From assembly GCA_021432635.1 (NCBI GenBank), contig MU270102.1, positions 62,001 to 126,000 on the forward strand: 64,000 nucleotides of DNA, read 5' to 3'. Below are positions 25,221 to 59,941 of the stretch, piece by piece. The stretch comes from Thozetella sp. PMI_491. Its lineage: Eukaryota > Ascomycota > Sordariomycetes > Chaetosphaeriales > Chaetosphaeriaceae. A program made the position numbers and the translations under genes. The number at the start of each line of letters is the position of its first letter. Within the stretch, counting starts at the first letter, position 1. The notes under the pieces were generated by a model. It saw nothing but the letters and a program-made list of their open reading frames with translations, was not told the origin of the DNA and ran no database searches.

Positions 25221-28200
25221 TCAAGCGGCGTTCCTCGTTCCGCTACCCCAGTGCTCCCGCAGGCTGTCGATCATTTTCTGAATCAACCGAGCGTCCGTGA
25301 CGTCTGGGAGAGTCGCTAGCGTCACGCTGGCCCTTGTAGTTTCCTCAGTGAGGTACTCCAAGATCTCCGTCTTCACTGCCCTTTCTACAGTACCGTACTT
25401 GCCCTCGAACCAATCCAGGAGCTTGATAGGTGGGTTACGTACTGCGTCTCTGTCGGATGTCCTCAGCTTCTCCATCCATTGGCCGGTCGAGAGTGTGTCG
25501 AATTTCAGACCCGCACTCGCCAGTGCCGGTAGCATATCCCTTGTCCAGTGGAACCTCTTTGGGTTGAGGACGTGGTACACCAGGGAAGGGTTCGAAAGCA
25601 GGCAGTCGTGTGATGTGGCCATCTCCGGACCGGTGAGGTTGGTGAGTTCTAGGATAGCTGTAGCAGCGTAGTCGACAGGCAGCCATGTCATTTCCTGTTT
25701 GCGGATCACGAATTAGCAGCGTGTTCATCTTCTCCTTGAGGAGCTGCATCTGAAGAGAAGGCAAAATATAATCACCTCTTCAAGAGCCGGAAGTGCCCCA
25801 AGAATCTCCGCCGTCTGGATCATTAACGGGATACCCTCGGTGGCGTTCCACTCGCCGACCTTGCTGTCACCAACTAGCTGACCGACTCGAAGAACCCGGG
25901 TCGGGGCGCCTGCTGCTGATGCCGCATTCAGTGTGATATGCTCCGCCACGTACTTTGATCTCGCATAGCCGGTTCCTTGTGCATAGGCTGGGCTAGTGAC
26001 AGGGCCCTCCTTGACATATCCAGGACGCGGGCTTCCACCCGCAGCCGAAACGGAAGAACAAAAGAAGAACCGAGCTGGCTTGCTCGTGGGGACCGACAGG
26101 CCTAGTTGAATCAGGTTGTGTAGGGCCTTGATATGCTGGTCTTCGAAACTCTGAACCGGGATGTTAAAGTTGACCGCCCAAGCACTGTGGATGGTGCAAG
26201 TGAGAGTGCTCCGAAGCTGAGCCAACTTCGCCGCGTCGAGCCCTAGGTCCGGACGGCCGAGATCGCACGCAAGTGGGACAACCTTAGATCCCTCCTCAGG
26301 ACCAAGAGTTAGTCCACGGGCGTTTAATGACCGCTGCAATCTCTCCGCCGCCGCCTCGTCCGACGGTGCTCGGATCATAGCCCATATAGCGGAGACGTTG
26401 GGGCGCGACGCCAGTTGAGCGAGGAGATGCGCCCCAAGTCCTCCGGTGACTCCGGTGACGAGCTAACGCATTGAAGTTAGACATATGTGTACATGGTCTG
26501 TTGGGGGGGCCTGGGCATTGAACATTACTTACTACCGTCTCTTTCTGGTGGTCTCCGGCCCCTCGATCCACATGGGGCTGGAAGACAGAATATTTATTAA
26601 CCAATATTTCCATTTTCTTCAGCTCGTCCTCGCCTGTGCTTTTGACGCCTTTCTTCAATTCCGTTAGATGGGCAGCGAGCCCTCGGACATTTCCGGTCTC
26701 GTAGAGCACATTTTGGCTGAGATCTGCTTGCCGTCCGCCTAGATCCAGTTCCCGCTTGATGAGGTTCCACACCTGCATACATTGCAAGCTGTCGACACCG
26801 GCGGCAAAGAAGTCAGTCTCAGGGGATGGAAGCTCCACCCCAATCTGTTCCTTCAGTCTCCGGAGGAGAAAATCTTCCAACTCGACACCAGATAGGGCAA
26901 GGCTACCGCCCTTCTCGTTTTCGAAGCTGTCGTAGGCAGCAGTGATCTCCGCCTCAAATTGGCGGTACATCGGCACGCGAATAAAAGTGCCCTTATCCGT
27001 CCGGGGGTATGCCACGTCGGCTGGGAGAATGACCAATAGCTCCTTAGGGATGCGCGAGAAAGATTCCGCTCTAGAATTGGCGTCCTCGACCGCGGGCCAC
27101 AAAAGCTCGAGGAACTCTGCATCGGAGAGGTGTGCCGCCCGGTCAGCCTTGACCACAAGCACCCCCGGGAAGCTTCGGCCATCGCCAAAGACGCAGGCCT
27201 CCTTCACGATCTCCTCTTGTCTAATACGGCCCTCGATGGGAAGGGGTAGAACCTTCTCCCCATTGATGAGAGTGAACCTATCGTCGAGTCTGCATGCGTA
27301 CTTCCACAGGCCCGGCCTCGTTGGGTGTGGAATGAAGAGATCCCTGGTTCGGAAGGACCTGGGAGGGTTGTCGGAGTTGATGGTACTCTTAGATTTGAGG
27401 CCATCGAGGGCCACGCACTCGTACAATCCAGGTGAAATCTCATCCATGAGGACGTATGGCTTCGCGGAGGGAAGCATGCGGAGGTAGTTCCAGTCCTTAT
27501 CACCAGGGGGTCGCGTCGAATTCATCAGTCTACCAGTTTCAGTCCTAGATCCAGAGGGTTAATACCAGCCCAAAGTCGTGATAATTACTAGAGCACACTT
27601 ACGCTCCATAATTTGCCACCAAGTATACTCCTTGGTCTACGAGCCGATTACCTAAATCGTCAGGACAGGCGCTCCCTCCAAACAGCACGAGCTTGACTTT
27701 AGCGAGCGACTGGACTCCTTCTTCGCTCTCGGCCAGCAGCTTCACCATATAGGGGACAAGGTGGCAGAGCTCGGGGTTGACCGTATCGATCATGTCCATC
27801 AAGCTCTGACGCGTGATGGGAATAGCGTAGTTACCGAGATAGATGGGTTTCCTCGAGTGGATGGACCGGAAGACCTCGTAAAAGCCGTGGCTGTGGAAAA
27901 GAGGAGACGCTATCAACGCGCGCATGCCTAAGTTGGTGGCAAATGCGGCAATGCAGCTGCCGTGCGTAAGGTATATGGGCTTCGGCAGGCCGGTAGATCC
28001 CGAGGAGTGGATGATGACGGCAATCTTCTTAGTCTCCGTGGCCGGGTCGCACGCGCGGGAGAATGAAGGTGCATCCTTGCCGTAGTAATCCGAGTGCGCA
28101 AAGAGCGGTTTCAGGTCAATGGGACGCTCTTGCTGGACCTCGCCCAACACCGGATGGAAATGTCTCGTGGTGAGTACTGTGTGGCAGTCCGTCATCTTGA

Positions 28201-28671
28201 GGAGTTGAGTAATGGCCGGGCTTGCGAGACGGGTTGAGATGAGAAAGACCGCATAACCCAGCCGGCTCAAGCTCATGATGGCAATGACAACATGCAGCCC
28301 GGACTGGGCCAGGATGCCGATGATAGGGGGCTTCTCTATCGCCGGATCCTTTGTGAGTTAGTAGATAGATGTGTGAATAATGGCCAAGAGCAAGGGCGGC
28401 GTACCACCGGCGGGAGACCCAGCGACTGGAGTTTAGCAACCGCGGCGTCTACGTAGCGATCAACAGCGCGTGCGCTATGCTCTTCAAAGTCGACTACCCC
28501 GTGCCTTGGATACCCTAGCAGCGGCGCATCTTGAAGCTCCTCGGCGCGCCGCTTAATGAGTTGGTCAATCGTGTAGATGGGGCGGGCGTCCTCTGCCGGC
28601 ACTGGAGACCTCGGAGAAACCAAAGAGGCACGAGCCTCGGGGCTGGTTGTGAAGGTGGTAGTGGTCGCCAT
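25221..28671 (-). CDS. NRPS-like adenylation-thiolation-reductase (carboxylic acid reductase type)
   Basis: Five exons (28671-28405, 28348-27603, 27544-26533, 26462-25776, 25694-25221) encode 1061 residues. The adenylation domain occupies roughly residues 20-550, with the ATP-binding IHSSGSTGLPKPIYLTHG loop and the NYGATETG motif completed across the second intron. The thiolation domain has the phosphopantetheine site FFAAGVDSLQ (Ser590). The reductase domain starts at residue 676 with LVTGVTGGLGAHL (NAD(P)H binding) and has the YARSK (Y-x3-K) catalytic pair. There is no condensation domain, so it should activate and reduce one acid to an aldehyde or alcohol. The substrate (aryl or alpha-keto acid are common) is unknown. 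It diverges from a Dal5-type transporter. ATG 28671 was preferred over 28707 for its context. Confidence 0.92.
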
Positions 28672-39126: not shown

Positions 39127-41168
39127 CTATTTGAGACGACGAGTCAAGCTATCGAGCCATCTCCAAGCTTTTTCCACGTTTGCCTTGAAATTTTTGAAAT
39201 CTCTACTCTCGACCTCCTGCAACGCATCATTCGAGAGGGTCGTACTAGCCTGAGATTCAATGGTGAGATCATACACAAAACCGCCATTAGTCTTGATCCT
39301 ACATGAAGCGGCAGACGTCGCAGTCGAAGTGTCCCCGTGCTGCCGGGAAGTACGACCTTCTCGCGAACTCGCCACCTGCCACCTGTCGATTAACGAGTAC
39401 CCAACAAGGGCCCAGAGCTGCTGAGGATCAACCTTTTCGAGGTAAAGAGTATCCGAGTTTATAATGAGGAAGATGGCAGTGATTGGCTCGCCGAAGCCAC
39501 GGAATTTCAGATCCAGCTGTGTGTAGTGAGATACAACTACGGGAATATTGTGATTTGTTGTGTCGAGTGAAGTCGCAAGTGGACGCATCGCAAGTCCTAG
39601 GTGCTCGGCAACTGATCGAGTGAGGAAAGAATACTTGCTTCCGGTATCCAAAACTGCACGGACAGGTCGAGGGTGTAATTTTTTGTCTACCACCAAGGCA
39701 GAAATCCAAGGCCGGCTCGTGGGCTCCAGAGGCTCCAGAGGCTCTATCTGCGCATCTTGTCTGAGCCACCTGTGCGCTAGGATATCTGCAGCTGTGATAC
39801 GCTTCTCTGGGTCGTATTTAAAACACTTGCACATCAAGTCGTAAAAGAGATCGACCTCTTGTCTGCTTATGGGTGCGGCATTTTCTGCCATCCATTCCTG
39901 CTTTACAAGTCCGTGGCGGAACGCGTCCTGGGGAAAGCTCGCAGTGAAAGGTGCCGGGCCCATATCTTTTTCCTTCCCCTCTCCCAAGATTTCGCTACGT
40001 TTGAGATCCCTGATTTCTTCGATGTACTTTCGCAGTGGTGTGCGAAATGGCCGGTAGTCGTCAGAGAAGGTGTGAGAGTCAGAGCAATCCTGTTCCGTGT
40101 CATGAACCGGCCATCCGTTGTCGTCAAAGAAGACAGTCTTCCAGCTTCGAAATGGAAGCCCGCCTAGAACCTCCTGCATTCTGCAGACGACGTTGCTCGG
40201 CGTATCGGGCATGTCGTAGAAAAGGTCCATCCCACCTCGCATCCGAAAAATTATGCATCCCAGCGCCCATATATCGGCCGGAGGACCGTTGCGTAGCTCA
40301 AATATGCTCTCCGGGGCAAGAAATATTGGTGGTATGCCAAGAAGGTCCGATGGCGGCTCTTCGACGGTATAGGCCTGATCAAAGTCCATGACATATACCT
40401 TACTAGAGAGATATCGAGCGGGTAATCGGCTAAGATCCATAGCCTGCACAGCATTTTTCGGTGCTCTAGAGATAGACTCGGTATCCTCTTCGTCCCGCAG
40501 AGTAATCTCCTGTGTTTCAATGGGAAAGATTTCCCAAATTTGACCCTCGGAAAGATCATCCAGCTGGGTAGAGAGCCCTTGGGAAATGTTGCGAGGGGTG
40601 AGATCTGGAAGTTATTGGTATCAATATGGCAACGTTCGACAGGGATAGACCAGGACGAAGACTTGCCTCCGTGACATATGTTGTAGGAATGCATAATTTT
40701 GAGCGCCTCAGCAATCTGGCGCGAAAAGTCCTTGGCGTACTCCGGATATAGCCTGTGGGACGGGTCGCTCAAGGCTGCCAGAGTCAAACCTAGGACTGGC
40801 AACACCTGGCATAGATGCCGACCGTTGGGGCTTTTGATAAAGAAACGTTCATATTCGGCTAGAAAGACATCTGGGAAGAGCTTCTGGAGAGGAAGGACGA
40901 GTGCCGACCGGGCATCGTACTCGGTAGAACCATCGGCAGTGACGATTTTGAGGGCGACATAGCGATTCTTATTCAGTTCTCGAGCGAGCCAGACAGTCGA
41001 GAAGCCACCCCAGCCCAACTTATGGATGATCTTGAATCGTTTCTCGAGGACTTGGCTGATTTCGACAGGACAGTAGCCTCCTTCGCAGTATGCTTCTGGA
41101 TCCTCCGCATCCACTTGGTCAAGTCCCCAGTATCGATCCCCCATCAAAGTATATGTTTCTATCGGCAA
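39127..41168 (-). CDS. SRPK-like protein kinase fused to a retropepsin-like domain
   Basis: Two exons (41168-40667 and 40604-39127) encode 659 residues. The intron has a non-canonical GC-AG pair (GCAAGT ... TTCCAG). The kinase part has the glycine loop GWGGFSTVW (52-60), the VALK lysine (Lys74), the catalytic loop HGDLTPRN with Asp168 and Asn173, DFD in place of DFG (241-243), APES (264-267) and ADIWALGC; the split-lobe layout with a long insert recalls SR-protein kinases. The C-terminal third has RAVLDTGSKYSFLTRSVAEHLGL with the DTG triad at 487-489 and ALVGYSLI at 567-569, the flap-side pattern of retroviral-type aspartic proteases. A PLEPLEP linker joins the two. Activity of both parts is plausible, not shown. 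It diverges from the Gly/Tyr-rich gene at 41795. Confidence 0.82.
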
Positions 41169-41794
41169 CAGATTTCTCTGGTTAGTTGATGAGCGCGAAT
41201 ATCGCGGATGGGGTGACGGCGCAAACGATGCAAGCGGTGAGTTGTAGTCGAGAGACGAGGCTGAAGAGGAGCCGCTTCCGGGCGGGGTTCAGCCGCTCTT
41301 ATAACCAATCAAACTGTCGTCCTTGGTGATTACATAAGAATCCTTAAGGTCCTAGTTAAACATTTGAAGGCTGAGGGACGGCTGGCATATTGTCTCTCCT
41401 TAGTACGTACGTGCCTAGGTAGGTAGCTACTGGCCGACCCGGGGGACAGTGCTCTTTTTATGCACTTTTCGGTGCCCAACTTCGCTGCCCAAGGCATTGC
41501 TATGGGAGATTCGCATCGCTAATGGACGCCCTGTACACACCCTCTTTTCTCGCTTCCAGCACATTGCAGTCACATTGGCTCTTTATGTAGCGCGGCAGAA
41601 GGACGCCGGAAGTAGGTAGCAGCACGTTAGTGGCACCACGTGTGTGCACCGCGAGGCTCGTCATTTTTTTCCCGCAGCACTCTGTCTTCAGCCGCATAGA
41701 GAGCATGTCTATATATTTTTCTTGCCGATAATCGCGGAATCTTGTGGTGCATGCCTCCTGAAGCTGGAAGGCTGTTCGCTCATATATCACTGCT
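41169..41794. promoter_or_regulatory. Divergent promoter, kinase-retropepsin and Gly/Tyr-rich genes
   Basis: A 626-bp region between outward-facing starts. It contains a CCTAGGTAGGTAG motif near 41412. No operator could be defined. Confidence 0.4.
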
Positions 41795-43535: not shown

Positions 43536-45236
43536 CTACATCGGCTTAGGCTTTTCCTCCGACGATGGTCCGTCATCTACTCTGACCGGTTCTTCGCCAA
43601 GTAGCATCCGCTCCCGGATGTAACCTGGGATCACCGGGTCATCGGGTAAGAACCCCTCGGTTGTCGCCATGTACTCCCATGCAGTGCTGGTGTCTTCATG
43701 CCCATCTGGATACAGCTTTGGTGGGAAAAGCCTACTCAGTATGTAATATACCACCGCAGAAGTCACAATCGACAACAGGAACCCGGTGTTGTAGACGTTC
43801 ACGGCTGTCTGGCTGATGGACCCCGGCCTAATTGCTCCCGAGATGCCGGAGATAACCAGAACCACGCCTGACACCCAGGCCCCCGCAGCCCGGAGGTTGA
43901 CGCCTCCGGTGTAAAAGTAGGGTGATGCCTTATCAGCCCGGTACAAGGATGGTATGTGCAAGTTGCCATTGCGCACGAGCCAGTAGTCGACCATCATGCA
44001 TGCCACTACCGGGGTAATAAAGCATAGGTAGGAGCCGAGGAACGTCAGGAAGTTTTGCGCCGAGTTCACCAACAGCCACGGCACCACTGCCCAAATCAGC
44101 AGATTGCACAGGATCTGGCCACGAACGATGGTGAAGTAAGAAGGAAACAGAGCCGCCAGATCGCACCCTATGGGGATGGCGTTGCTGGAGATGTTGGTCA
44201 CAACGGTGGCGAACGCCTGGATGAAAGCGCCAAGGAACACCAGCGTCCTGGTGCCCGGGCCCCAGTAGGCATCCAGGACGGCAGAGTAAAAGTCCCAGAG
44301 GTTCCAGAAAGCCTTCCCGAATCCCTTTGCCCCCGCTGCCGTAGTGAACAGCCCGATTAGAATTACCAGCGGCTTGCTGATGAACAATCCAAACACCAGC
44401 GGCGACATGTCCCTCGGCCGCTTTCCGTATCGAGCCAAATCCGCAATATTCACCATGGGCGGCACTACGCCACTGACGACGGTGTTGATCGCACGCATGA
44501 ATGACCAGCCGAGATCGCTGCCCGACACATATTTCGCGCTTAGATTCAGCTCGACACCGTTGAACGTGCGGATTGCCCAGATCATGGTTACTAGGTAGGC
44601 GATGGGCGATAGGAACGACTTGACGGCAAAGACCGGCCCGGCCTTGCTGGGGTGCATCCAGGCCGAAGGGAGCTGGAGCAGCCAGGTGATGAAAAAGGCT
44701 GCCATCTGGGCGGTTGTGATGCCCGCCGACGCCGGGAGATGGTTGGGCATGTTCTTCCAGCTGCTCCCGAAGATACAGCGGAGGGCGACGTCTAAGAGAC
44801 GGCTGGCGTAGTACGTCTGCGTTCCTTCGTAGAATATGGCGACAATCATGCGGATGAAGACGAAGAAGTACGCGCCGTAGACGCCAGCAGACGAGCGCAC
44901 CATGACAGGGAACCCGACATGGTAGCGGGAAGGGCCGCGCGAGTTGAAGAAGAGGACGATACAGCAGAGTAACGTGCCGACGAAGGACGCGATGATGATG
45001 GTCCACCACGAGAGGCCGATCGAGTACAAGCTGCTGCCGATGTTGTAGGTTGTCGGCGAGAAGGCGATTGAGAATTGGAAGAAACCGAAGTACCAGGCAG
45101 ACCAACTGCGGTCTTGGGGCGGGGATGGCTCTAGATCGATATTTGATAGTGGTCCGTACTTGGTATCGAGCTCGTCGCTCGACTCCTTCGTCCTGGCGGC
45201 CTCCTTGAGCCGAGTCACAGCGCTTTGTCCCGCCAT
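43536..45236 (-). CDS. NCS1-family permease (purine/pyrimidine/hydantoin/allantoin type)
   Basis: A single exon, 566 residues from ATG 45236 (AAAATGG context); an upstream ATG at 45275 would add 13. The family pattern is clear: SWSAWYFGFFQFSIAFSPTTYNIGSSL in helix 1, GPSRYHVGFPVMVRSSAGVYGAY, VSGVVPPMVNIADLARYGKRP, and ITPVVACMMVDYWLVRNGN. This matches the Fur-like branch of fungal NCS1 proteins, proton symporters for uracil, allantoin, uridine or hydantoins at the plasma membrane. The next gene upstream on the same strand is an Asp/Glu-racemase-family enzyme, which in this superfamily includes hydantoin racemases; together they suggest uptake and processing of a ring compound. Substrate is inferred only. 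Confidence 0.9.
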   Translation of the reverse strand: MAGQSAVTRLKEAARTKESSDELDTKYGPLSNIDLEPSPPQDRSWSAWYFGFFQFSIAFSPTTYNIGSSLYSIGLSWWTIIIASFVGTLLCCIVLFFNSRGPSRYHVGFPVMVRSSAGVYGAYFFVFIRMIVAIFYEGTQTYYASRLLDVALRCIFGSSWKNMPNHLPASAGITTAQMAAFFITWLLQLPSAWMHPSKAGPVFAVKSFLSPIAYLVTMIWAIRTFNGVELNLSAKYVSGSDLGWSFMRAINTVVSGVVPPMVNIADLARYGKRPRDMSPLVFGLFISKPLVILIGLFTTAAGAKGFGKAFWNLWDFYSAVLDAYWGPGTRTLVFLGAFIQAFATVVTNISSNAIPIGCDLAALFPSYFTIVRGQILCNLLIWAVVPWLLVNSAQNFLTFLGSYLCFITPVVACMMVDYWLVRNGNLHIPSLYRADKASPYFYTGGVNLRAAGAWVSGVVLVISGISGAIRPGSISQTAVNVYNTGFLLSIVTSAVVYYILSRLFPPKLYPDGHEDTSTAWEYMATTEGFLPDDPVIPGYIRERMLLGEEPVRVDDGPSSEEKPKPM

Positions 45237-45930
45237 TTTGGGTACGGGCGAGCAAGAGAACAACACGGTGAGCAAGGCCCGACGGCCGGCTCGGGGAGGT
45301 CTACCATCTTACCGTACTTATCACGGACGCGAGCTCGCCGTGCGTTCGCCGCGTCGGTCACGTTAGGCGGATCGGCTGCATCATCCCGATAGATAAGAGA
45401 CGGAAGTGTGCAACCATTCGATCATCTTTCGACCCCCGGAGATAGCTCAACGTGTATGACTCGGCAACATCCTTACCTCCTGGGCAAGAGATCAGGGGTG
45501 CCAGTGAGGAGCTATGGTATTGGTCCCGGCAGCCAAGAAAGTAGATAACGGTGCGCCAGTAGTGGGGAGCTAGAGAGGAGAACTGGGGTAGGACCCCGCT
45601 GGCGGAGAGTGCGGACAGAACCCCGACGCGCTGCCAGATAAGGGCGGGGTGCGCCCTGGCCGTTGATAACCACGGCCCGTTGCCGGCGATCAGCGCGAGT
45701 ACTGCTTTCTCGGCGCAACCGTGACCCGACTGTGCTGTCAGTGTTTTCGGGGATAGCATTGATGGCAACAAACTGCGGGCATGGAACGAAGGCGGTGAGC
45801 ACACAGGAGGGAGCATATATATATGTTCGACCATCAAATTATGATCGACACGCCGACGTAGTCACGTATAATTAAGGTAGCATATGCCTAAAGGACCAGG
45901 TCAGGTATTACTAGGCACGGAGTGCGCAAT
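45237..45930. promoter_or_regulatory. Upstream region of the NCS1 permease gene
   Basis: A 694-bp region containing the permease promoter and the 3' flank of the racemase-family gene; no defined element. Confidence 0.4.
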
Positions 45931-46701
45931 TTACAGCTCAAACAGTTTTCCCCATCCCTTAATTGCTCCCTTTTCCCATCCTTTGATCCTGAGCATGTCC
46001 CATAGCACTGTTGACACTGTATCGAGAAGCACGATGTCGAGCTCCTTCTCCCACTTCTCGGCGTATTGTGCTGCGCTCAAATTGGTGCAGAAAGTCGTCA
46101 CGCCCAGGAGCACACCTTTCTCTCGCCCCCGCGCAACGACATCCTTGACCTGTGCGCCAAGGGTCGCCTCATCAATGTCGGCGAACTCGACATTCACCGT
46201 TTTTCTCAAGTGACTCTCGGCTGCGACGTCGTATCCGGCAGCGGCGTAGGTCGCCAAGATCTTGTCCTGCACGTCGTCCAGGTACGGTGTGACGAGCCCA
46301 AACGGCTTCGGCCCGGTGATGCCTTTGGACGCCGCAAGCAGGTCCAGCGCGCGATTCAGCGCCAAGGTGCTGGTGGTCGCCGGAATGCCGCCCGTCGCCT
46401 CAGTAATGGCCTTGCAGAGGGCTTCATCCTGGTCGAAACCCAGCCAGCCACCCGACGTGCCGGACCAGCCGATGACGTCAACCTTGGCGGTGGCGAGGAG
46501 GAGGGCCGCCGCGATTATGGGGGACGAGGCATCGGCGGAGTTGAACTGCGCCAGCGCGGCCGGCTTGAGCGAGATCTCGGTCACCTGGAAGCGGCTGTAG
46601 TGGACGCTCACGGCCGGGGAGAGTTGTGCGACAATCGCGCTGGTGAGCGGCTCGAGGGCCGTGTTCGAGGAGGGGACGAGGATGCCAAGCTTGAGCGGCA
46701 T
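45931..46701 (-). CDS. Asp/Glu racemase-superfamily enzyme, arylmalonate decarboxylase-like
   Basis: A single exon of 256 residues. The fold is recognised from LGILVPSSNTALEP at the start, VDVIGWSGTSGGWLG (residues 75-88), and GVTTFCTNLSA with Cys205. Racemases and maleate isomerases of this group use two Cys, one in each half; here the first site reads GTS with Gly81 where a Cys would be expected, while the second Cys is kept. That single-Cys pattern is the one of arylmalonate decarboxylases. It may therefore decarboxylate or isomerise a malonate- or maleate-like acid rather than racemise. It lies upstream of the NCS1 permease on the same strand. Reaction and substrate remain inference. Confidence 0.78.
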   Translation of the reverse strand: MPLKLGILVPSSNTALEPLTSAIVAQLSPAVSVHYSRFQVTEISLKPAALAQFNSADASSPIIAAALLLATAKVDVIGWSGTSGGWLGFDQDEALCKAITEATGGIPATTSTLALNRALDLLAASKGITGPKPFGLVTPYLDDVQDKILATYAAAGYDVAAESHLRKTVNVEFADIDEATLGAQVKDVVARGREKGVLLGVTTFCTNLSAAQYAEKWEKELDIVLLDTVSTVLWDMLRIKGWEKGAIKGWGKLFEL

Positions 46702-47697: not shown

Positions 47698-48273
47698 TTA
47701 GTAGGTAGCGTTGATAATGACCGAGAGGGGCTCAGCGGCATCCTCAACGGCCCGCTTGGTGAAAGAGCCGGCGACGATCTCCTCACCACGCTTGTAGGTG
47801 GCGTTGATGATCACGCTGAGAGGCTCGGCGGTGTCCCGCTCCTCAACATCGCGTCTGTAGGTGGCGTTGATGATGACGCTAAGGGGGTCGGTCTCCCGCT
47901 CCTCGACGTCGCGCTTGTAGGTAGCGTTGATGATCACGCTGAGGGGGTCAGTCTCCCGCTCCTCGACGTCACGCTTGTAGGTGGCGTTGATGATGACGCT
48001 GAGGGGGTCAGTCTCTCGCTCCTCCTTGATATCGCGCTTGGCAACACCCTCGGCAACGATGGTGTTGCCACGCTTGTAGGTTGCGTTGATGATGACGCTG
48101 AGAGGCTCAACCTCGGCACGAGCCTTAACGCCTGCTCCAATTTGTGAGTTTAGCCACCTAGGAACCTCTTTGATTCTGCCCAAGAGTGCTGTTTACGTAC
48201 CACGGGCGGGGGCAGCAGCAACAAAGCCGCTGAGAAGGGCGGTAGCCGCAGTGATGGAGGTGGAGAAACGCAT
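47698..48273 (-). CDS. Kexin-processed repeat precursor, probable dikaritin-type RiPP precursor
   Basis: Two exons (48273-48201 and 48131-47698) encode 168 residues; the 69-nt intron has GTACGT, GCTAAAC and GCAG. A signal peptide (MRFSTSITAATALLSGFVAA) leads to a body containing six identical copies of PLSVIINATY. Five copies are followed by KR or RR and the sixth ends at the stop codon. Acidic spacers (DVEERETD and variants) precede the cores, and two extra KR-bounded peptides (GNTIVAEGVA and GEEIVAGSFT) interrupt the array. This is the design of ustiloxin, phomopsin and asperipin precursors: secretory entry, Kex2 cutting, then crosslinking of a Tyr-containing core. The UstYa gene lies 1 kb away. 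An uncrosslinked secreted peptide or pheromone is the alternative; the core lacks the Trp/Cys pattern of known alpha-type pheromones. Confidence 0.85.
47701..48105 (-). repeat. Six PLSVIINATY core-coding repeats
   Basis: Cores lie at 48105-48076, 48006-47977, 47946-47917, 47886-47857, 47823-47794 and 47730-47701. Three neighbouring units are exactly 60 nt apart. Core amino acids are identical although synonymous bases differ between copies, so selection keeps the peptide. Confidence 0.9.
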
Positions 48274-49223
48274 GGCGAGTATTTAGATCTAGATATGCAA
48301 CGTAGAAGTGCTTTGCAAGACTGGGGTGGAGGCCGGTCGTACCAGAAACCGAGAGAATCTGACGAGCGAGGCAATTGGAGCGATGGGACACTTATACTTA
48401 CGACCAACCCCGTGGCACGGATCGTTCTCGGAAATGTTCCTCTCTAAGGCCTCACCAAGTCTTGTGCTACCTAAATGAGGAAGCTGCTAAGGGCCTCAGC
48501 ATACCGTGGGTATCGCAGTATGCGGCGTACTTTCGGAACCTCGAGCCAATAACACCAGTATTATGCAACAGCCTTTGACTTTCTATACCACTACTGCGCG
48601 GCTAAGTCTGGAGCCTGGGCAACCGTGCGGCTTAGCTCGTGTCGTTATCTTACCTTCCTGTTCTATGCTCCTCTCGCCACATCGCTTAGTCTTGTAAATG
48701 GGTATGCGATGGGAGCGTTGCATCCCGCCATGCTGTCACTCTCCTCAGCTGCCGCTTATGGGTGATGGACGCCTCGGCGGCCCCGCTCATTGGGCGGCGC
48801 TCGTACTTTTCCATCCTACGCCAAGGATCTCGAAGGGGCCCAGCAGATGGCCAGAAGCAGCATGCAGGACGTTTCGAACCAAGAGGGTGGAACATATAGC
48901 CTGCTGGTAAGACTATCATGGCCTATCATTTCGCGCACAGGGTTGAAAACAGAGATGGGCTAGACCATTCCCGGGCTTGCCAAAGCAACTATTCACGACT
49001 GCCTTCCATTTTGTTCTCAAGTCCTTACAGGGGTACCCCCGGTGATGCATGATGGAGGCGGGGCACGAGGGCACTAGCTCCTGCCCCGAGCGTGACATTC
49101 GCGAAGCGACACAACCCGGCTTCCTGGTTTAAGAACCGCCAGACGTCAGACTCGCCCTTCTCCTAGAATGTTCTTGATCCCCCCTTGTGACCTGGTTACG
49201 ACTGCCACTTACCTTGTTTCACG
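48274..49223. promoter_or_regulatory. Divergent region between RiPP precursor and UstYa gene
   Basis: About 950 bp between two outward-facing starts, fitting joint control. No clear operator was recognised. Confidence 0.5.
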
Positions 49224-50321
49224 ATGGCGGCTAACGAGTCCAAGTACGCTCGTCTGAGCGACTCTGAATCTGATGATTCAGAGTCTGGACCTTTCTTGGC
49301 TGCTCCCTCGCACCAGCGCCCGGCAAGACACCAGAGGTGGATATGGGTAGTGCACTTCGTCCTCTTGGTGGTCTCCTCCAGCCTCTTCATTGGGACCACC
49401 ATCCAACAGCGACGGATTTCCCGCAGCCTGGAGGTGGGGCCCAAGTACACTCGTGAATACGGTGAGTCCAACTTGCTCGATCTGTTCCAAGTGGCTCGAT
49501 TAGCCAGGCTAATGGTGTCCCGAACCAGAGCGGATAGTAAAAGACGTCGGCGAGATGCATCCTTGGCAATTTGCAGGCTCGTTTGGGCAGGAATCGAAGT
49601 GGCGCGGGGACCCGAATCCTGAGCTCGACGCTGCCTGGGACGCTATCGCCACACGTAGGTGTTAACCAGACAGTGAACGATGTTGGGTGGCGTGACTAAT
49701 CCGATGGCTACAGCGAGGGTTCTGCAAGGCGTGACGAAAGAAGACGTGGTGCGGCTAGGTAAGCTGAGCAACAGCACTGTCCAGATACCCGAAGAGTATG
49801 GGGGAGGCTACATGGCATCAGTGGAGGCGACACATCAGATGCACTGCCTGGTAAGTCCTTGGAATACCTTGCCAAGCCTATTCATGGTAGCAGGAGGCTC
49901 ATAACCGGCACTCTAGAACATGCTGCGAAAGGCTTCATACCGCGAATACTACAAGGACAAAGAACCAAACTTCTTCAACCATGCCAAGCACCAGCTTCAT
50001 CTCGGTAAGCTCGCTCATCTAATCAAACTTTGAAGGATCGATTGCTGATTGCGAGTAGACCATTGTATCGAGGCTCTCCGTCAGGTTATCATGTGCAACG
50101 CCGATATGCACATTATCACCTACGACTGGGTCGGTCACGTCACGTATCCCTGGCCCGACTTCAGTATCAACAAGCAGTGCCGTAACTATGAAAGCCTAAT
50201 GGACTGGATTATCGAACGGGAAGCGAGAGCGCCCCAGGGCCATAGTTTGCTCGTCCGGCCCCCGAACGCGGGCATTAAGCCCATCGACCCAGTGGATTAT
50301 GTTCACGAGGACTTCTCATGA
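49224..50321 (+). CDS. UstYa-family (DUF3328) oxidase
   Basis: Five exons (49224-49461, 49529-49654, 49714-49850, 49917-50004, 50059-50321) encode 283 residues. A cytosolic N terminus is followed by one transmembrane helix at about 40-60 (WIWVVHFVLLVVSSSLFIG). The two hallmark motifs are present: HQMHC (His162, His165, Cys166) and HLDHC (His195, His198, Cys199), the second created only by the last splice. The flanks PNPELDAAW and NMLRKASYREYY are also typical. UstYa proteins are membrane-bound, metal-dependent oxidases that cyclise or hydroxylate dikaritin cores in the secretory path. Position next to a six-copy precursor makes it the candidate tailoring enzyme. No second UstYb gene is seen within the window. 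Confidence 0.88.
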
Positions 50322-51248: not shown

Positions 51249-53484
51249 TCATGTCACCGATCTTTTCGTGCCGTTCGAACCATTTGAGGTGGTCAGCAGT
51301 CCTTCTGCAGCCATTGGCATCAAGGCGCTGCAAAGAGAGCCGCTAGTGATCGCGTCATGGATGATAGAGATCCATCCACCGATGGTCTTCTTTGGCCGAT
51401 TACCAAGTGTTTGACTTTTTGCTGTGGGATGCTCAATAAAGCCTAGGTGAAAGGGAACGCCAAGATCCTTACGCACAAACTGATAGAGGACGCGTGAGCC
51501 ATTGCCGAGGAGTGCTTCCGTGTGCGGGTTCGCGCAGAAGGAAGCAAAGTTATCCTTCCAGATGTTGAGAACAGTCGCCGTAGTCTCTACTTGCCATGCC
51601 TGCACTTGTGCTACTGTACCGTCGACGTGTGTTACCAGGATCGGGACGGCGGTGCGAACCAAAGCTTGACACCTAGCTGCGAGATCTAGCTTTCCTGTCG
51701 AACTCCATGCTGGTAACGTCTGTGACCTTAGGGTTTCTTGTAATATGGATAACCTTTCGGGAGCTAGAGCGGCCGAGAAGTGACGGTCGGTGATGCTCTG
51801 CATGGCGTCGGAGGCTTTCTCTACGAATGCCATGTGCAGGGCTCGCAGATCTAAAGCCTGGCAAACGACGTAGGTGCTACACGCACACATCTTGGAGAGT
51901 ATGTCGAAGGCGTCAAAGCTCATGCGCGCCGAGGCCAAAGCCATGGAGTTGACGGATTGGTTGTGCATCTCGGCCGCTTGTACGTGCGAACTCATGGGCT
52001 GAGCCAGATAGGACAGCTCGGCCATGTACGCGGCCATGTTAACATCCACCCCTTTCATGGTGAAGGAGAGGCTAGGATCGTCTGCAGCCAGGTTGGCCGG
52101 CAGGCCGCCGCTGAGATTCGGATCGATCATCTCCGTCGCCTGCGAGAAGAGGAGCCTCCCCAGCATCTGTAGCGCGAGCCGCACTTTCTCCATGGCTGAA
52201 GTGACGGCGGCAGCCTGGAAGTTGCAACCATAGTAGATGTCGCGGGCTGCGCTATCGACGAGGGGGTTATCGCAGGACGAGTTCAGTTCGACGCTGATTT
52301 GGCTAAAAGCGAGGCCGAGGTCCTCCAGCTGGGGACCGATCCACTGCGGTGCGCTGCGCAACGAGTAACGATCCTGAACCAGGTCCTCGCGCCGACGATT
52401 CTTCGGCTCCAGAGCATCTCGACAGAGATGTGATCCTCCTAGGAAGTAGCGGACATTGCGTGCACACTCTATCTGACCTGGATGCGGCCGTGTCTGTGCG
52501 ATGAATGGGTGGAAGCTCTCCGCACTCCCACGGAGCGCCTAGCGATGTCAGCGATTGGCTATCCCTCTGCACAGAAAACCTCACGTTCTTACCTCCACGG
52601 CTCCTCCTGTCAATACTTGGGTGAGCAACGCTAGATTGTTGGCTCCAGCCACCACTATCGCTCCAAGCCCTGCGGATGACGAGGTTCCATTGATCAATCC
52701 GAGTCCTTCCTTCGGGCCCAAAGCGATCGGTGCAAGCCCGGCTTCCTGCAGAGCCTGGGGGGCGGGCAAAACCTGACCGTCTCTCTCGACTAATATGTCC
52801 GGATTGCCCTCTAGACTCCCAGCGACGTAAGAAAGGGGCATAAGATCTCCCGAGGCGGACACCGAGCCTCGCAGTGGCACAACGGGTGTGAGGCCGTGGC
52901 AGACCAAATCTGCCACCGCTCGGATAACTGGAATTGACACGGCCGAGTGGCCGCGCATGGTCGAGTTACACCGCACCACCATGGCAGCGCGCACCCAAGC
53001 CGGAGGCATGGCGTGGCCTGGCAGCCTGCTATCGGCCCGCCGCGAGAGGATGCCGCTTTGTGTGTGCTGCATCAAGGAGGACTGTAGCGCCACCACTTCG
53101 TCCGTGCGGGAATCGGCACTTCCGCCGAAGCCGGTGTTGACCCCTAAGCCATCAGGATCCCTGCTGCGGCAGGAGGGGCAGGGAACTTTACCGTATACAT
53201 ACCAGCCCTTCGCGAGGTGGTCAAAGAGCACATCGATACTCTCCTGCACGGCTCTGGCAATGGCTGGGTCTTGACTGAGCTGTGGCTTGCAGCCGTGTCT
53301 AGGAGCTAAGTCAATCTTCCCACACTATAAGAAGGGCCCTCGAAGGCGCTTACTCTGCAGTGGCCACAACGTCGGCAATCTCGAGGTCATGACCGTTGAG
53401 CTCGTACTGACCCACCTTAATTCGCTCCTGGAGCCGCTTCCAGGTGGCATAGGTGTTGGCCAAATGAGAGCTCTGGGAAATCAT
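51249..53484 (-). CDS. Phenylalanine/tyrosine ammonia-lyase family enzyme
   Basis: Four exons (53484-53354, 53298-53192, 53143-52593, 52538-51249) encode 692 residues, the usual fungal PAL size. The MIO cofactor triad is at 176-178 within GSVSASGDLMPLSY; VYGVNTGFGGSADSRTDE supplies catalytic Tyr79; LINGTSSSAG, ELNSSCDNPL and AAEMHNQSVNS are the other active-site blocks. Where yeast PALs have HQ in the substrate-selectivity position, this protein has His106-Thr107, so preference for Phe, Tyr or another amino acid is open. ATG 53484 is the only in-frame start. The enzyme makes trans-cinnamate or a relative plus ammonia in the cytosol. It lies beside the UstYa gene, but membership in that pathway is not shown. 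Confidence 0.9.
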
Positions 53485-56058: not shown

Positions 56059-57336
56059 CTATCCAGTCAAAGAGCCGCTGTTAAAGTCAGCCGACCAGAA
56101 CATGGCGCCTCCGAGACATCTCCCATCAGCCCAGGCCAGTTTCAGCAGCAGAGTGTCGGCATCGTCATATGCCATCCACTGCCCATTGCCCCAGGTCGCA
56201 TACTTCTGTATGGCGCTCCTGTCGAGCGTGACCGCGGCGTTGTTAGCCGACAATGTCTGCTTGATATCGGTGAGGATCATAACGCCGCTCGTGTCTCGGA
56301 CGCACGACGCCGAGTTGCTCGGGCCGGACGCAGTGCAGCCGACGGTCGAGCATCCGGTGTTGGCAAGCGTGTAGCCGCGTCCATACAGAGGAATGCCGAT
56401 GTTGACCTTTGCCGGCGGGATCTTGCTCGACCAAAGGGGAAGCATGTCGGTGTCGATCTCGCGGATGTCGGCCGGGTAACTCATGTTGGACTGGCGCGTG
56501 CCGAAGTCGATGCCCCAGCCGTGAATGTCATAGGCCATGTAGTTGAAGAAGTCCATGTACTGAGCCATGTCAAGCCCGTCAAAGCCCCGCACACTACCCC
56601 AGTCCGCCGGCAAGGCAGCCGAGATACCGTAGGTAGTACCGAAGGCGGCCCGGAGCTCTCGGACAAGAGCAACCAAGTTCTGAGCGTCAGAGCCCGACTC
56701 GTTGGGGAACTCCCAGTCAAGATCCACGCCCTGGAAACCGTACTGCTTCATGAAGGAGAGGAGGGAGTTGATGAATTGGGCTCGGGACGTGGCCGTGGCC
56801 GCCATCGCGGACCAGGTTGCCACCGAGAAGCCTCCTCCGCCGATGGCAATCCACGTCTTCAGGGAGCTGCTCTTCAGGCTAGTGAACTGAGTGTAGTAAC
56901 TAACGTCTGCTGAGTCCGCCGCCACCACGGCAAAGCTGGACGGGTCGATATGGGCGAACGCGAGGACCAGGTGGCTCACACCGGCAGTCGAGATCTGCGA
57001 GGGCAGCACTACGTCGCAGGAGCGGTCGTGCGCCTGCTGCACTTGCCAGTAGCCTACCCGGCGGCCGTTGGTCGCAGACTTGCCGTTCTTGTCGCAGGTC
57101 GGCGCCTGGGGCACCGTGCAGGACCCATAGAGCGACTGGCAGCCGGAGCCGCAGTACGCGCTCGTTGTGCCACAGTATCCGGCAGCGCTGCAGCAGACGT
57201 TCATGCCGCACTTTGCCCCTCCGTCATTGGGACCGCACTGCTCTCCGTTAGGCCCGTCGGCAAGGGCAAGCGCGGGTAGGAGCGCCGACGCGATGGCCAG
57301 CGACCAGGCGGCACGAGACAAGGAAAACACAGTCAT
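56059..57336 (-). CDS. Secreted GH18 chitinase with N-terminal chitin-binding domain
   Basis: A single exon of 425 residues from ATG 57336, which places a signal peptide (MTVFSLSRAAWSLAIASALLPALALA) at the start; upstream in-frame ATGs at 57465 and 57360 give a worse leader. Residues ~27-75 are a hevein-type CBM18 with eight Cys (CGPNDGGAKC, CCSAAGYCG, YCGSGCQ). The GH18 barrel follows: WIAIGGGGFS, GFQGVDLDWEFP carrying the catalytic D-x-D-x-E, MDFFNYMAYDIHG and GGAMFWSADFN. The protein ends soon after the last barrel strand. It should cleave chitin outside the cell, for nutrition, wall turnover or antagonism. It is the shorter form, lacking the long C-terminal region seen in killer-toxin-like chitinases. 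Confidence 0.92.
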   Translation of the reverse strand: MTVFSLSRAAWSLAIASALLPALALADGPNGEQCGPNDGGAKCGMNVCCSAAGYCGTTSAYCGSGCQSLYGSCTVPQAPTCDKNGKSATNGRRVGYWQVQQAHDRSCDVVLPSQISTAGVSHLVLAFAHIDPSSFAVVAADSADVSYYTQFTSLKSSSLKTWIAIGGGGFSVATWSAMAATATSRAQFINSLLSFMKQYGFQGVDLDWEFPNESGSDAQNLVALVRELRAAFGTTYGISAALPADWGSVRGFDGLDMAQYMDFFNYMAYDIHGWGIDFGTRQSNMSYPADIREIDTDMLPLWSSKIPPAKVNIGIPLYGRGYTLANTGCSTVGCTASGPSNSASCVRDTSGVMILTDIKQTLSANNAAVTLDRSAIQKYATWGNGQWMAYDDADTLLLKLAWADGRCLGGAMFWSADFNSGSLTG

Positions 57337-59941
57337 GGCGGCGAATGGTATACTGAGCATTTCCACTCCATTCTGTAGGGACACAGCTACTATGATATAT
57401 GGCCGCACCGTCTCACTGTGGGGGACGTGAAGTAACGTGTGAGGCGAATCCAGCCCCCTAAGCACCCACGTGTAAACCGTATAACCTAGCAGAACGGTGC
57501 CTTGTTACGATCTACTAAGACCAAAACTCCACATGCATGCTAATAAAAAGCAAAAGGGGAAGTGTATTAACCCCGTGAATTCGCCGTTGTAACAAGAGTG
57601 CTGACATGGTAAGGTAAGGTTGCACTTGGCAATCCAGGCATCGAGCACACCCCTGTCCATGGCGCAGCCCTTAGTCCAGTGCCATCTGAATGCCCACCGC
57701 AGAGGACTTTTGTGGCGGCTGACGACATAACAACACAACGGACCCCAGGTGACATGGCCCACGGAGTTCTAGCATAGGTTATGCACCGCTCGTGTCGAAC
57801 AAGGTCATAAGGCATGTTTTCTCGCAGGTCGTTGTGTCGTCGTGTTCTGTGGTTCGACAACACGTGGCCCACCTTTGGAGGGGATTTATGCATGACGCCC
57901 CCCTGGCTAGTTCCTAAAGGATTTTAAGTATCAATAGAGCGAAATTTCTACTACGCACCTGGCCCATATTAGGCCCTCCAAAACGTAATAGAGATTTGGC
58001 CGAAGGGCCCAGCCAGTCGTAGGAGCGTAGCAAAGCAACCCTCGTCAGCCTTAATGACAGCCAAGCCACCGTCCCAGCAACCTCTCATCGCGCTATTTGG
58101 CCAGTCTCGGGCTCACTTTGCGACTTTTGCACCTCAAGATAAACCAACCTCCAGTGGGCGCATGTCCAGCGAGAGTTCTGCCACAAGTAGATGCATCCCG
58201 TCGAATCGGAGGCAGAGTGATTGGATTACGCGAGCAATAAGTCTTTGTGCAAGAGAATAGATGCAGGTTGAGAACTGAATGTGCTACCGGGGAAGTGCGG
58301 CTCGGCCGAGAACGTGCAGCCCTGAAATCTCGCCTCGTGTACGGAATAGAATGAGCAAACATCCTCTTTTTCACTCCTATCACCTCGACTGCGGCATCTC
58401 TGGCGCCTAGGAGCTATGCTCAACTAAACATGGTGGAATGACTGCCTCAATAGGAGCCTTTAGCACATGCTTGAGAAAGCGACGCTATAGCGACTCTTCA
58501 GCAAGCGTCTGGAGGCTCCACCAGACAGCTAGGGTACTGTACACGGCGCTTGTTGGTAGCTACGGTAGTTAGGTACCCACGTCCCGGTACATAGTTCGCT
58601 ACCATCACTCACTCGTGCGTCTCTAGTATTCGTGTAGATGTTTAGGTGCCGACTTGTGATTCCTCCATTTAAGTTAGTCTCACATGAGCCGCATGACCCA
58701 CCTTTCCCCGAGTGAGCGAGGGGGTTTACTGGATTGCCCAACCTAGAGACATTCCCGACGGCGGCACCAAGGTGGCCGGGTTTCCGAGAGGATTCCCGAA
58801 TTTGATTGCGCACTTGGATGGCCACGAAGAGGCTCGCACGTATCTCGAAAAGGCCAAGCTAAATAGTGGCGGACATAAAAATTGAGACGACCTGCACTCA
58901 CACTTGTTGTTCCAAGATGCAAGGCTCTAGCCATTAGCTGTTTTGAGAGTACTGGAGTAGCACCTCTGCCTGAAGATCTTTGCCTCACCTAACTTTTCTT
59001 ATCCGCTAAAGCCGTACCTCTCCAATGACCTAATACCCAAGCCCCAGGCGAAGCTCGGCCGCATACAACCCAATTCGGCAGAGGCATTACTTTTAAGAGG
59101 GTACAATTGACTTATGCTATTCGCCTCTAATACTGTCTGTGCTAGGCAATGTGTGTGTGTATGTGGTGTGTGTAGAGAAATGCCCCGAAAGCCGCACTAC
59201 TTTGCCCGAAAGCTCTAGCGATTTTGCGGGGTAGCATTGTTGGGGTGGCCGCTTCAGAACGCCGAGGCAGCGTTGATTGGCGGCTTTGGCGAATCTCCGT
59301 AGGGGCAAGTGGCGGGGAAGCAAGGCCCACCAGCTCGGCCCAGGGACACGACGCGGCCCGTAAACTTGGTAAACCAAAACTAAGTTGGTGACAGCTGCAG
59401 CTTGAAAATGGCGACTCATGAACCGGGTTGTTATGCCTTGGCGGCTCGGTTTCTGTCATTGGTGCGTCGGGTAGCTGCGAGTCCAAGCCCACTGTTGCGA
59501 CAACACGCGCTGGCGCGAGGTCGCAACAGGTTTGTGCACAACAGAGAGGGTGCAGCCCGGTGCTACGAACAATCGAGGCTAAACGAAAACGAAAACGAAA
59601 ACATGCGATTCCATGTCTTTCCCTCTGTTAGAAATACAGCCGTTAAGAGTTGCCCATAATTACCTGCTCTGGTGCTTATGGTACCGACTGTAGACCTGCC
59701 TCGGGAGTGGGAGAGTTGCACTAAACAAAGCTTGGCACTGGGCACCCCGCGGCGTGGTCGGGGTATTGACGTCCGATAGATTAACACCCAAGCATTGATC
59801 CGAATGGCGGGTTGAAAGCGAGCAGTGGACCTGCCCATGACGCGAGGGCACGTCGGTGGAGATAAAGTGCGGTATAGCCGCAAAGCACCTCCCGCGCGCT
59901 GAACGTTGTCTACACTTCGCTTTGCCTCGGTGACCGTCATC
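57337..59941. other. Long intergenic interval with simple repeats
   Basis: No supported gene in about 2.6 kb between divergent hydrolase genes. A (GT)n-rich tract lies at 59148-59176 and a gaaaac tandem run at about 59583-59602. Confidence 0.5.
59148..59176. repeat. GT-rich microsatellite
   Basis: A tgtgtgtgtatgtggtgtgtg tract, imperfect, likely length-variable. Confidence 0.7.

Follow-up and report, generated by a model that had tools for sequence, protein, structure and literature searches.

What does a gene make if it repeats one decapeptide six times? The gene in question lies in a window of 64,000 nucleotides (by the window, we mean the whole stretch of DNA from Thozetella sp. PMI_491 that we analysed), and each copy of the decapeptide, PLSVIINATY, ends at a dibasic site or at the stop codon. 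A sequence-only reading had taken the gene for the precursor of a dikaritin-type peptide. We still consider this to be the best reading, and it is strengthened by an intact gene for a UstYa (DUF3328) oxidase that lies 950 bp away, which had been overlooked. Our view is that the precursor and UstYa probably form a two-gene unit of the dikaritin type, in which UstYa would make a ring that is linked through Tyr10 of the core.

The precursor gene and its six cores

The precursor gene has two exons, and its spliced translation bears out what had been said of it, namely that there are six identical cores, KR or RR cut sites, and a last core that runs up to the stop codon (Table 1). PLSVIINATY occurs in exactly six identical copies in the 168-aa protein. 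The N-terminus (MRFSTSITAATALLSGFVAAAPAR) is hydrophobic and ends in AAAPARG; by eye and by hydropathy, which peaks at 2.1 over residues 12-21, it resembles a signal peptide. The residue before each core is always E or D. All six tyrosines of the precursor are at the ends of cores, where the core's sole Tyr is residue 10, and the precursor has no cysteine. There is also an N-A-T sequon in every core, for six in total, as the sequence-only reading had noticed. Kex2-processed repeat proteins (KEPs) are defined in Umemura 2020 by three or more repeats, each of 8 aa or longer, that lie between KR, KK, RK, or RR sites, together with an N-terminal signal peptide (PMC7329392). Here there are six copies: KR or RR comes after the first five, and the stop codon after the sixth.

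The six-fold repeat is not due to chance: when the precursor protein was shuffled 2000 times, no 5-mer was ever seen in more than two copies, whereas the real protein has a 10-mer in six. In the DNA, the core array is a 60-bp tandem repeat. Compared to their consensus, the six 30-base copies differ at 12 bases in 10 codons, and all of these differences are silent, with zero amino-acid changes. Nine of the ten codons differ at a single base, and the tenth, a swap between the serine codons AGC and TCG, differs at all three. About 24% of single changes in the cores would be expected to be silent, which gives P of about 3e-6 for nine silent single-base changes, or 5e-8 if all 12 bases are counted; both values assume that changes are free and independent, and the shared ancestry of the repeats weakens them. 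None of the other five frames encodes one peptide across the six copies. The best of them has three of six, and in that frame there is a stop in every copy. The strand opposite the precursor is also open (155 aa), with peptides that vary from copy to copy.

Could this be a structural or surface-active (Rep1-like) repeat protein whose cores are not released as active peptides? It does look like a secreted repeat protein, and some KEPs are hyphal-surface peptides (PMC6339444). On the other hand, the spacers between the cores vary whereas the decapeptide beside the dibasic site is invariant, so exact conservation falls on the decapeptide. Also, UstYa adjoins the precursor. We consider the structural explanation to be extremely unlikely.

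If the dikaritin-type reading is correct, then the precursor, once expressed, would enter the secretory pathway, and Kex2 would cleave after each KR or RR. (A match to the kexin P-domain is present in the genome.) Kex1-type carboxypeptidases would then strip the basic residues to leave peptides such as DVEERETD-PLSVIINATY, with Tyr as the C-terminus. The predicted core-bearing fragments are the N-terminal one, DIKEERETD-, DVEERETD- (twice), DVEERDTAE-, and AVEDAAE-PLSVIINATY, and the predicted cleavage also leaves two short spacer peptides. The divergent UstYa homologue, which would be anchored in the membrane with a binuclear copper site in the lumen, would oxidise the core. The most likely bond would join the phenol of Tyr10 to a carbon of an upstream Ile, Asn, or Thr and so form a ring. 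Aminopeptidases would remove the acidic spacer at the N-terminus, and secretion of the product would follow. For PLSVIINATY itself, the calculated [M+H]+ is 1090.614 if the peptide is linear and 1088.599 with one crosslink or desaturation; the corresponding values are 1219.657 and 1217.641 for EPLSVIINATY, 1205.641 and 1203.626 for DPLSVIINATY, and 2064.013 and 2061.998 for DVEERETDPLSVIINATY.

We found no other copy of the precursor in the genome, where its sole match was its own locus. Nor did we find any structured RNA or tRNA within the 64-kb window.

Table 1. Features of the window and five further precursors in the same genome (positions in the window, or in the named locus)
Feature	Position	Strand	Description	Basis
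Precursor gene	48273-47698	(-)	two exons, 168 aa; ATG at 48273, TAA at 47698	
Precursor exon 1	48201..48273	(-)	ATG and signal-peptide-like N-terminus	spliced translation, hydropathy
Precursor intron	48132..48200	(-)	putative, 69 bp, GT-AG	GT/AG borders and frame
Precursor exon 2	47698..48131	(-)	six PLSVIINATY cores, KR/RR sites, TAA at end	
Core 1, then KR	48076..48105	(-)	residues 34-43	
Core 2, then KR	47977..48006	(-)	residues 67-76	
Core 3, then KR	47917..47946	(-)	residues 87-96	
Core 4, then RR	47857..47886	(-)	residues 107-116	
Core 5, then KR	47794..47823	(-)	residues 128-137	
Core 6, then stop	47701..47730	(-)	residues 159-168	
Intergenic stretch	48274..49223	(.)	950 bp between both start codons	coordinates
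UstYa/DUF3328 oxidase gene	49224..50321	(+)	five exons, 278 aa	PF11807 E 1.6e-48
UstYa exons	49224-49461, 49544-49654, 49714-49850, 49917-50004, 50059-50321	(+)		exon 2 start set by homologues
Aromatic amino acid ammonia-lyase	51252..53484	(-)	three exons, open frame	PF00221 E 1.3e-76, 1.1e-59 (two exons)
Arylmalonate decarboxylase-like protein	45934..46701	(-)		PF17645 E 9.8e-10
NCS1 permease	43539-45308		with the arylmalonate decarboxylase-like gene, on the precursor side away from UstYa	
Further precursor beside UstYa	L003:1-504			
Further precursor beside UstYa	L010:50-433			
Further precursor beside UstYa	L016:146-529			
Further precursor beside UstYa	L023:2572-3069			
Further precursor beside UstYa	L040:6591-7373			

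The UstYa gene and its neighbours

The UstYa gene and the precursor are 950 bp apart and are transcribed divergently, and it is possible that the stretch between them is a shared promoter. (The PF11807 E value in Table 1 and the homologue alignment are from a 267-aa model of UstYa, in which exon 2 starts downstream of 49544.) The protein has both of the HXXHC motifs (HQMHC at 157 and HLDHC at 190), one membrane helix at about residues 39-60, and two further cysteines beyond the motifs. When UstYa is aligned with 26 of the 120 listed homologues, the His and Cys of the motifs do not vary, and nor do the two further Cys. In a broader alignment of 50 sequences, with remoter and fragmentary ones among them, full identity is lost in two of the six motif columns, which are still at least 90% identical. 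So the precursor does have beside it what a dikaritin precursor should have, a UstYa/DUF3328 gene with two HXXHC motifs. In CctR, the HXXHC motif binds two coppers, and the enzyme requires O2 (Huang et al. 2025, PMC12435403); the same paper reports that AprY, the cyclase of asperipin, also depends on copper and O2. As judged from its sequence, UstYa matches these two copper-dependent enzymes in its architecture of motifs, helix, and cysteines.

The closest public protein to UstYa is GQ53DRAFT_669188 (P0001), which is a partial model of the same protein from Thozetella sp. PMI_491 (99% identity over 70%). Its start is missing, and it has an extra Val within the second HXXHC motif, which probably comes from a misplaced intron border. 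The next eight relatives (P0002 to P0009) are 46-55% identical and are from Anthostomella, Xylaria, Nemania, Xylogone, and other Xylariaceae; Thozetella belongs to the Chaetosphaeriaceae (Sordariomycetes). An AlphaFold model of UstYa, built on the public fragment P0001 (with its one extra residue in the second motif) and 49 homologues, is of moderate confidence (mean pLDDT 74.9, pTM 0.68). The model places the two motif regions in helices, at 72-86 and 102-123, as described for CctR. Because it has no significant match in the PDB (0 of the 28 listed at E<=0.001; the best Foldseek E was 3.6), the predicted fold gives no independent support. Similarly, searches for a solved structure of the UstYa family by single sequence (E<=0.001) or by profile (E<=1) found none.

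About 0.9 kb past the stop of UstYa is an aromatic amino acid ammonia-lyase with a spliced model of 708 aa; the border of its last intron could be placed in frame in four ways, of which this model uses one. PF00221 matches at only two places in the genome. Position is the only tie between the ammonia-lyase and the precursor-UstYa pair, and its membership in the cluster is uncertain. It is doubtful that the arylmalonate decarboxylase-like gene belongs to the cluster: together with the NCS1 permease, it looks like part of a separate catabolic pair that is outside the dikaritin-type unit. To our knowledge, none of these three genes is known as a dikaritin tailoring gene.

As with the NCS1 permease, there is no evident link between the pair and an S10 carboxypeptidase that runs from 62196 onward in the window. 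Three other places on the minus strand also caught our attention. At 25725-28357, adenylation, carrier, and NAD-binding reductase domains follow each other in successive open frames; this is a carboxylic-acid-reductase-like (A-T-R) enzyme, and the place is possibly a separate metabolite locus. At 39130-41288, a kinase-like protein is followed, in frame, by a retropepsin-like aspartyl protease domain, which is an odd pairing. And at 56062-57504, about 6 kb from the UstYa gene, there is a chitinase-like protein with GH18 and chitin-binding domains.

The five-gene definition of dikaritins by Ding et al. lists a tyrosinase, multiple DUF3328 genes, a methyltransferase, and a transporter or peptidase (PMC12048977). 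No tyrosinase match was found at the locus, and asperipin-2a is without a tyrosinase too; none of the 80 tyrosinase matches in the genome is on the window's contig (C88). There is one UstYa gene near the precursor, as for asperipin-2a, and the one further match listed for C88 lies at a distance of about 67 kb. There is no clear methyltransferase, transporter, or peptidase among the scanned neighbours of the precursor-UstYa pair. More specifically, in the open frames that we scanned near the pair, we saw neither a methyltransferase nor an AprR-like reductase nor an MFS exporter.

Is the pairing accidental?

The genome (72.3 Mb in 157 contigs) has at least 153 matches to PF11807. Among the matches listed, and after merging those less than 900 bp apart, there are about 123 UstYa genes in about 91 loci; about 123 is a rough figure because it is based on the listed matches, with 150 of the first 203 candidates scored. 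Some of these genes are in groups, such as one of five genes around 597-610 kb of C36 and one of six around 300-313 kb of C5. At about 123 genes, positions no more than 950 bp from a UstYa gene make up about 0.5% of the genome. It is therefore unlikely that the adjacency is accidental, though the chance is not negligible.

If it were accidental, then the precursor could encode a linear secreted signal, a pheromone, or an effector, with UstYa as an unrelated neighbour. Some chance neighbours are expected, given so many UstYa genes. Also, Ste13-type peptidases remove XP or XA dipeptides, and in every copy of the core, LSVIINATY is preceded by EP or DP. Alpha-pheromone precursors and other linear KEPs share the architecture of our precursor (PMC9769878, PMC6339444). 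However, none of the Kex2 fragments starts with an XA or XP dipeptide, and the precursor has no mating-factor Pfam domain (there was one sub-threshold match to LPD15 only). Furthermore, according to Umemura 2020, 0 of 227 KEPs of the yeast alpha-factor group and 3 of 216 KEPs of the pheromone group had a DUF3328 neighbour (PMC7329392). We think that a linear signal is quite unlikely. As for the narrower identification as an ascomycete alpha-type pheromone precursor, we rejected it, given the absence of a mating-factor domain and the DUF3328 neighbour.

Umemura 2020 describes 7878 KEPs in 1345 of 1461 fungal strains, and for 1758 of these KEPs (22%), the 15 nearest genes included a DUF3328 gene, which mostly adjoined the KEP directly (PMC7329392). 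Tyr was present in 65.6% of the repeats that had a DUF3328 neighbour versus 38.2% of those that did not (PMC7329392). To look for similar pairs in the Thozetella genome, we used a detector of repeat precursors that asks for three or more 7-mers that resemble each other and adjoin dibasic sites in a single frame. It had 0 matches in 3.07 Mb of sequence that was shuffled in three-base blocks. Similar repeat precursors were found at 4 of 29 other UstYa-centred loci (L003, L010, L016, and L023); these loci are the best-scoring matches with flanks of 1.5 kb, and some of them overlap. Another was found at 1 of 11 further 10-kb UstYa loci, which are low-scoring (L040). For comparison with this 5 of 40 there are, rather than matched random places, only the remainder of the window and 30 kb of its contig (L033-L035), and in these the detector picked up no additional precursor. 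We left out of the count L024, which is the window's own UstYa; L001 and L032, which are the window's own precursor repeats; and off-frame signals that echo the L003, L016, and L023 arrays.

The repeats of the five further precursors include GIDYIKEG, YGVDTFGAI, SEAQSPDILYNNPAGWG, ANNVDVVLKAENWGT, and AEDVVLSGNTEQHGW. Their cores are unlike PLSVIINATY and unlike one another, and no repeat contains a sequon. Tyr is absent from the L023 repeat and from most copies in L040, which suggests other chemistry at those loci.

The likely product and its novelty

In its layout, the locus appears closest to asperipin-2a (AprA, AprY): both have a multicore precursor whose core ends in Tyr and a single UstYa homologue, and both are without a tyrosinase. 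Asperipin-2a is cyclised with one UstYa homologue from a four-gene cluster that has no tyrosinase, and in its core, FYYTGY, Tyr side chains are joined to beta-carbons (PMC6514808). However, that core is a hexapeptide with three Tyr, while the Thozetella core is a decapeptide with one. Because there is one Tyr, the two Tyr ether links of asperipin-2a could not be reproduced here. Also, asperipin has an AprR-like reductase and an AprT-like transporter, but we saw neither among the frames that we scanned. Victorin, which we compared by description, is similar in that its core has a C-terminal aromatic residue with aliphatic residues upstream, and its ring is reported to join the C-terminal Phe to an internal Leu (PMC9233826). 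It differs in having Phe instead of Tyr, and at our locus we saw no further tailoring genes.

The ustiloxin and phomopsin precursors (UstA and PhomA) resemble ours in having repeated cores, KR sites, and UstYa, and they have a signal peptide where ours has a signal-peptide-like N-terminus. But in ustiloxin and phomopsin, the ring runs from a Tyr at the N-terminus of the core to an internal Ile (PMC9233826), and these two residues belong to the EDYXI motif of their cores (PMC6339444). A tyrosinase and two or more UstYa genes are present in their clusters (PMC7329392), neither of which was found at the Thozetella locus. We rejected this topology because the core's only Tyr is C-terminal. So of the analogies that were drawn at the outset, the asperipin-like terminal Tyr stands, while the likeness to ustiloxin and phomopsin, whose Tyr is at the other end of the core, does not. 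The epichloecyclin precursor GigA, again compared by description, is a repeat precursor with KR sites, and a Tyr-Ile crosslink has been proposed for it (PMC9233826), but in its core, Ile is N-terminal and Tyr is internal. By analogy, a victorin- or asperipin-like topology seems to fit our core better than that of ustiloxin or phomopsin. Given this topology and the asperipin-like gene content, we favour a ring from the phenol of Tyr10 to an upstream carbon.

The main rival to ring closure is that UstYa hydroxylates or desaturates the core (to give, for example, a beta-hydroxy residue or dehydro-Ile/Val) and leaves the peptide linear. DUF3328 enzymes also hydroxylate, halogenate, or desaturate, and they act outside of RiPP pathways as well (PMC12048977, PMC12435403, PMC10512285). 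CctR is a DUF3328 hydroxylase (PMC12435403), and phomopsin needs three UstYa homologues for desaturation plus cyclisation (PMC10512285), as compared to the single UstYa here, with no tyrosinase on the contig. Nevertheless, asperipin-2a is cyclised with one UstYa homologue and no tyrosinase in its cluster (PMC6514808), and Tyr is retained in 6 of 6 cores. We consider it unlikely that UstYa modifies the core without forming a ring, and the Tyr10-linked ring is still our preferred reading.

A more elaborate product can be imagined. The core sequons are in a protein that presumably transits the ER, and in that case a small macrocyclic glycopeptide could be the mature product, with N-glycosylation at Asn7, a Tyr10 crosslink made by the copper oxidase, and perhaps the ammonia-lyase serving the pathway. 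This is a long shot. We know of no N-glycosylated dikaritin, and in the text that our full-text search covered, none was described, which is not proof of absence.

Is the peptide new? Among 1803 candidates that share words with the precursor, we found no relatives at E<=0.001 or even at E<=10 that could show co-evolution with UstYa, in a kind of search that unannotated relatives escape. Since the neighbouring UstYa was found at once, the precursor probably lacks a record among the public proteins of that collection. Surveys of annotated proteins would therefore not see it. We also searched for pieces of the core in the full text of 5.39 million open papers (supplementary tables are outside of this scope) and found nothing relevant; the sole match was a scanning accident in a text from 1808. 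Within the limits of the protein and full-text searches, these results agree with the sequence-only reading, which knew of no described dikaritin with this core. The peptide core looks new, although the design of the precursor is already known.

Few dikaritins have known products (five, by the count of a 2022 review; PMC10512285), even though pairs of a precursor and UstYa are frequent. The Thozetella locus is about as small as such systems get, with one UstYa and one precursor whose identical cores each contain just one Tyr. This makes the mass of the product and its crosslink easy to predict, and the locus would be a clean test of what one DUF3328 enzyme does alone. The five or more other precursors that adjoin UstYa genes in the same genome provide material for comparison.
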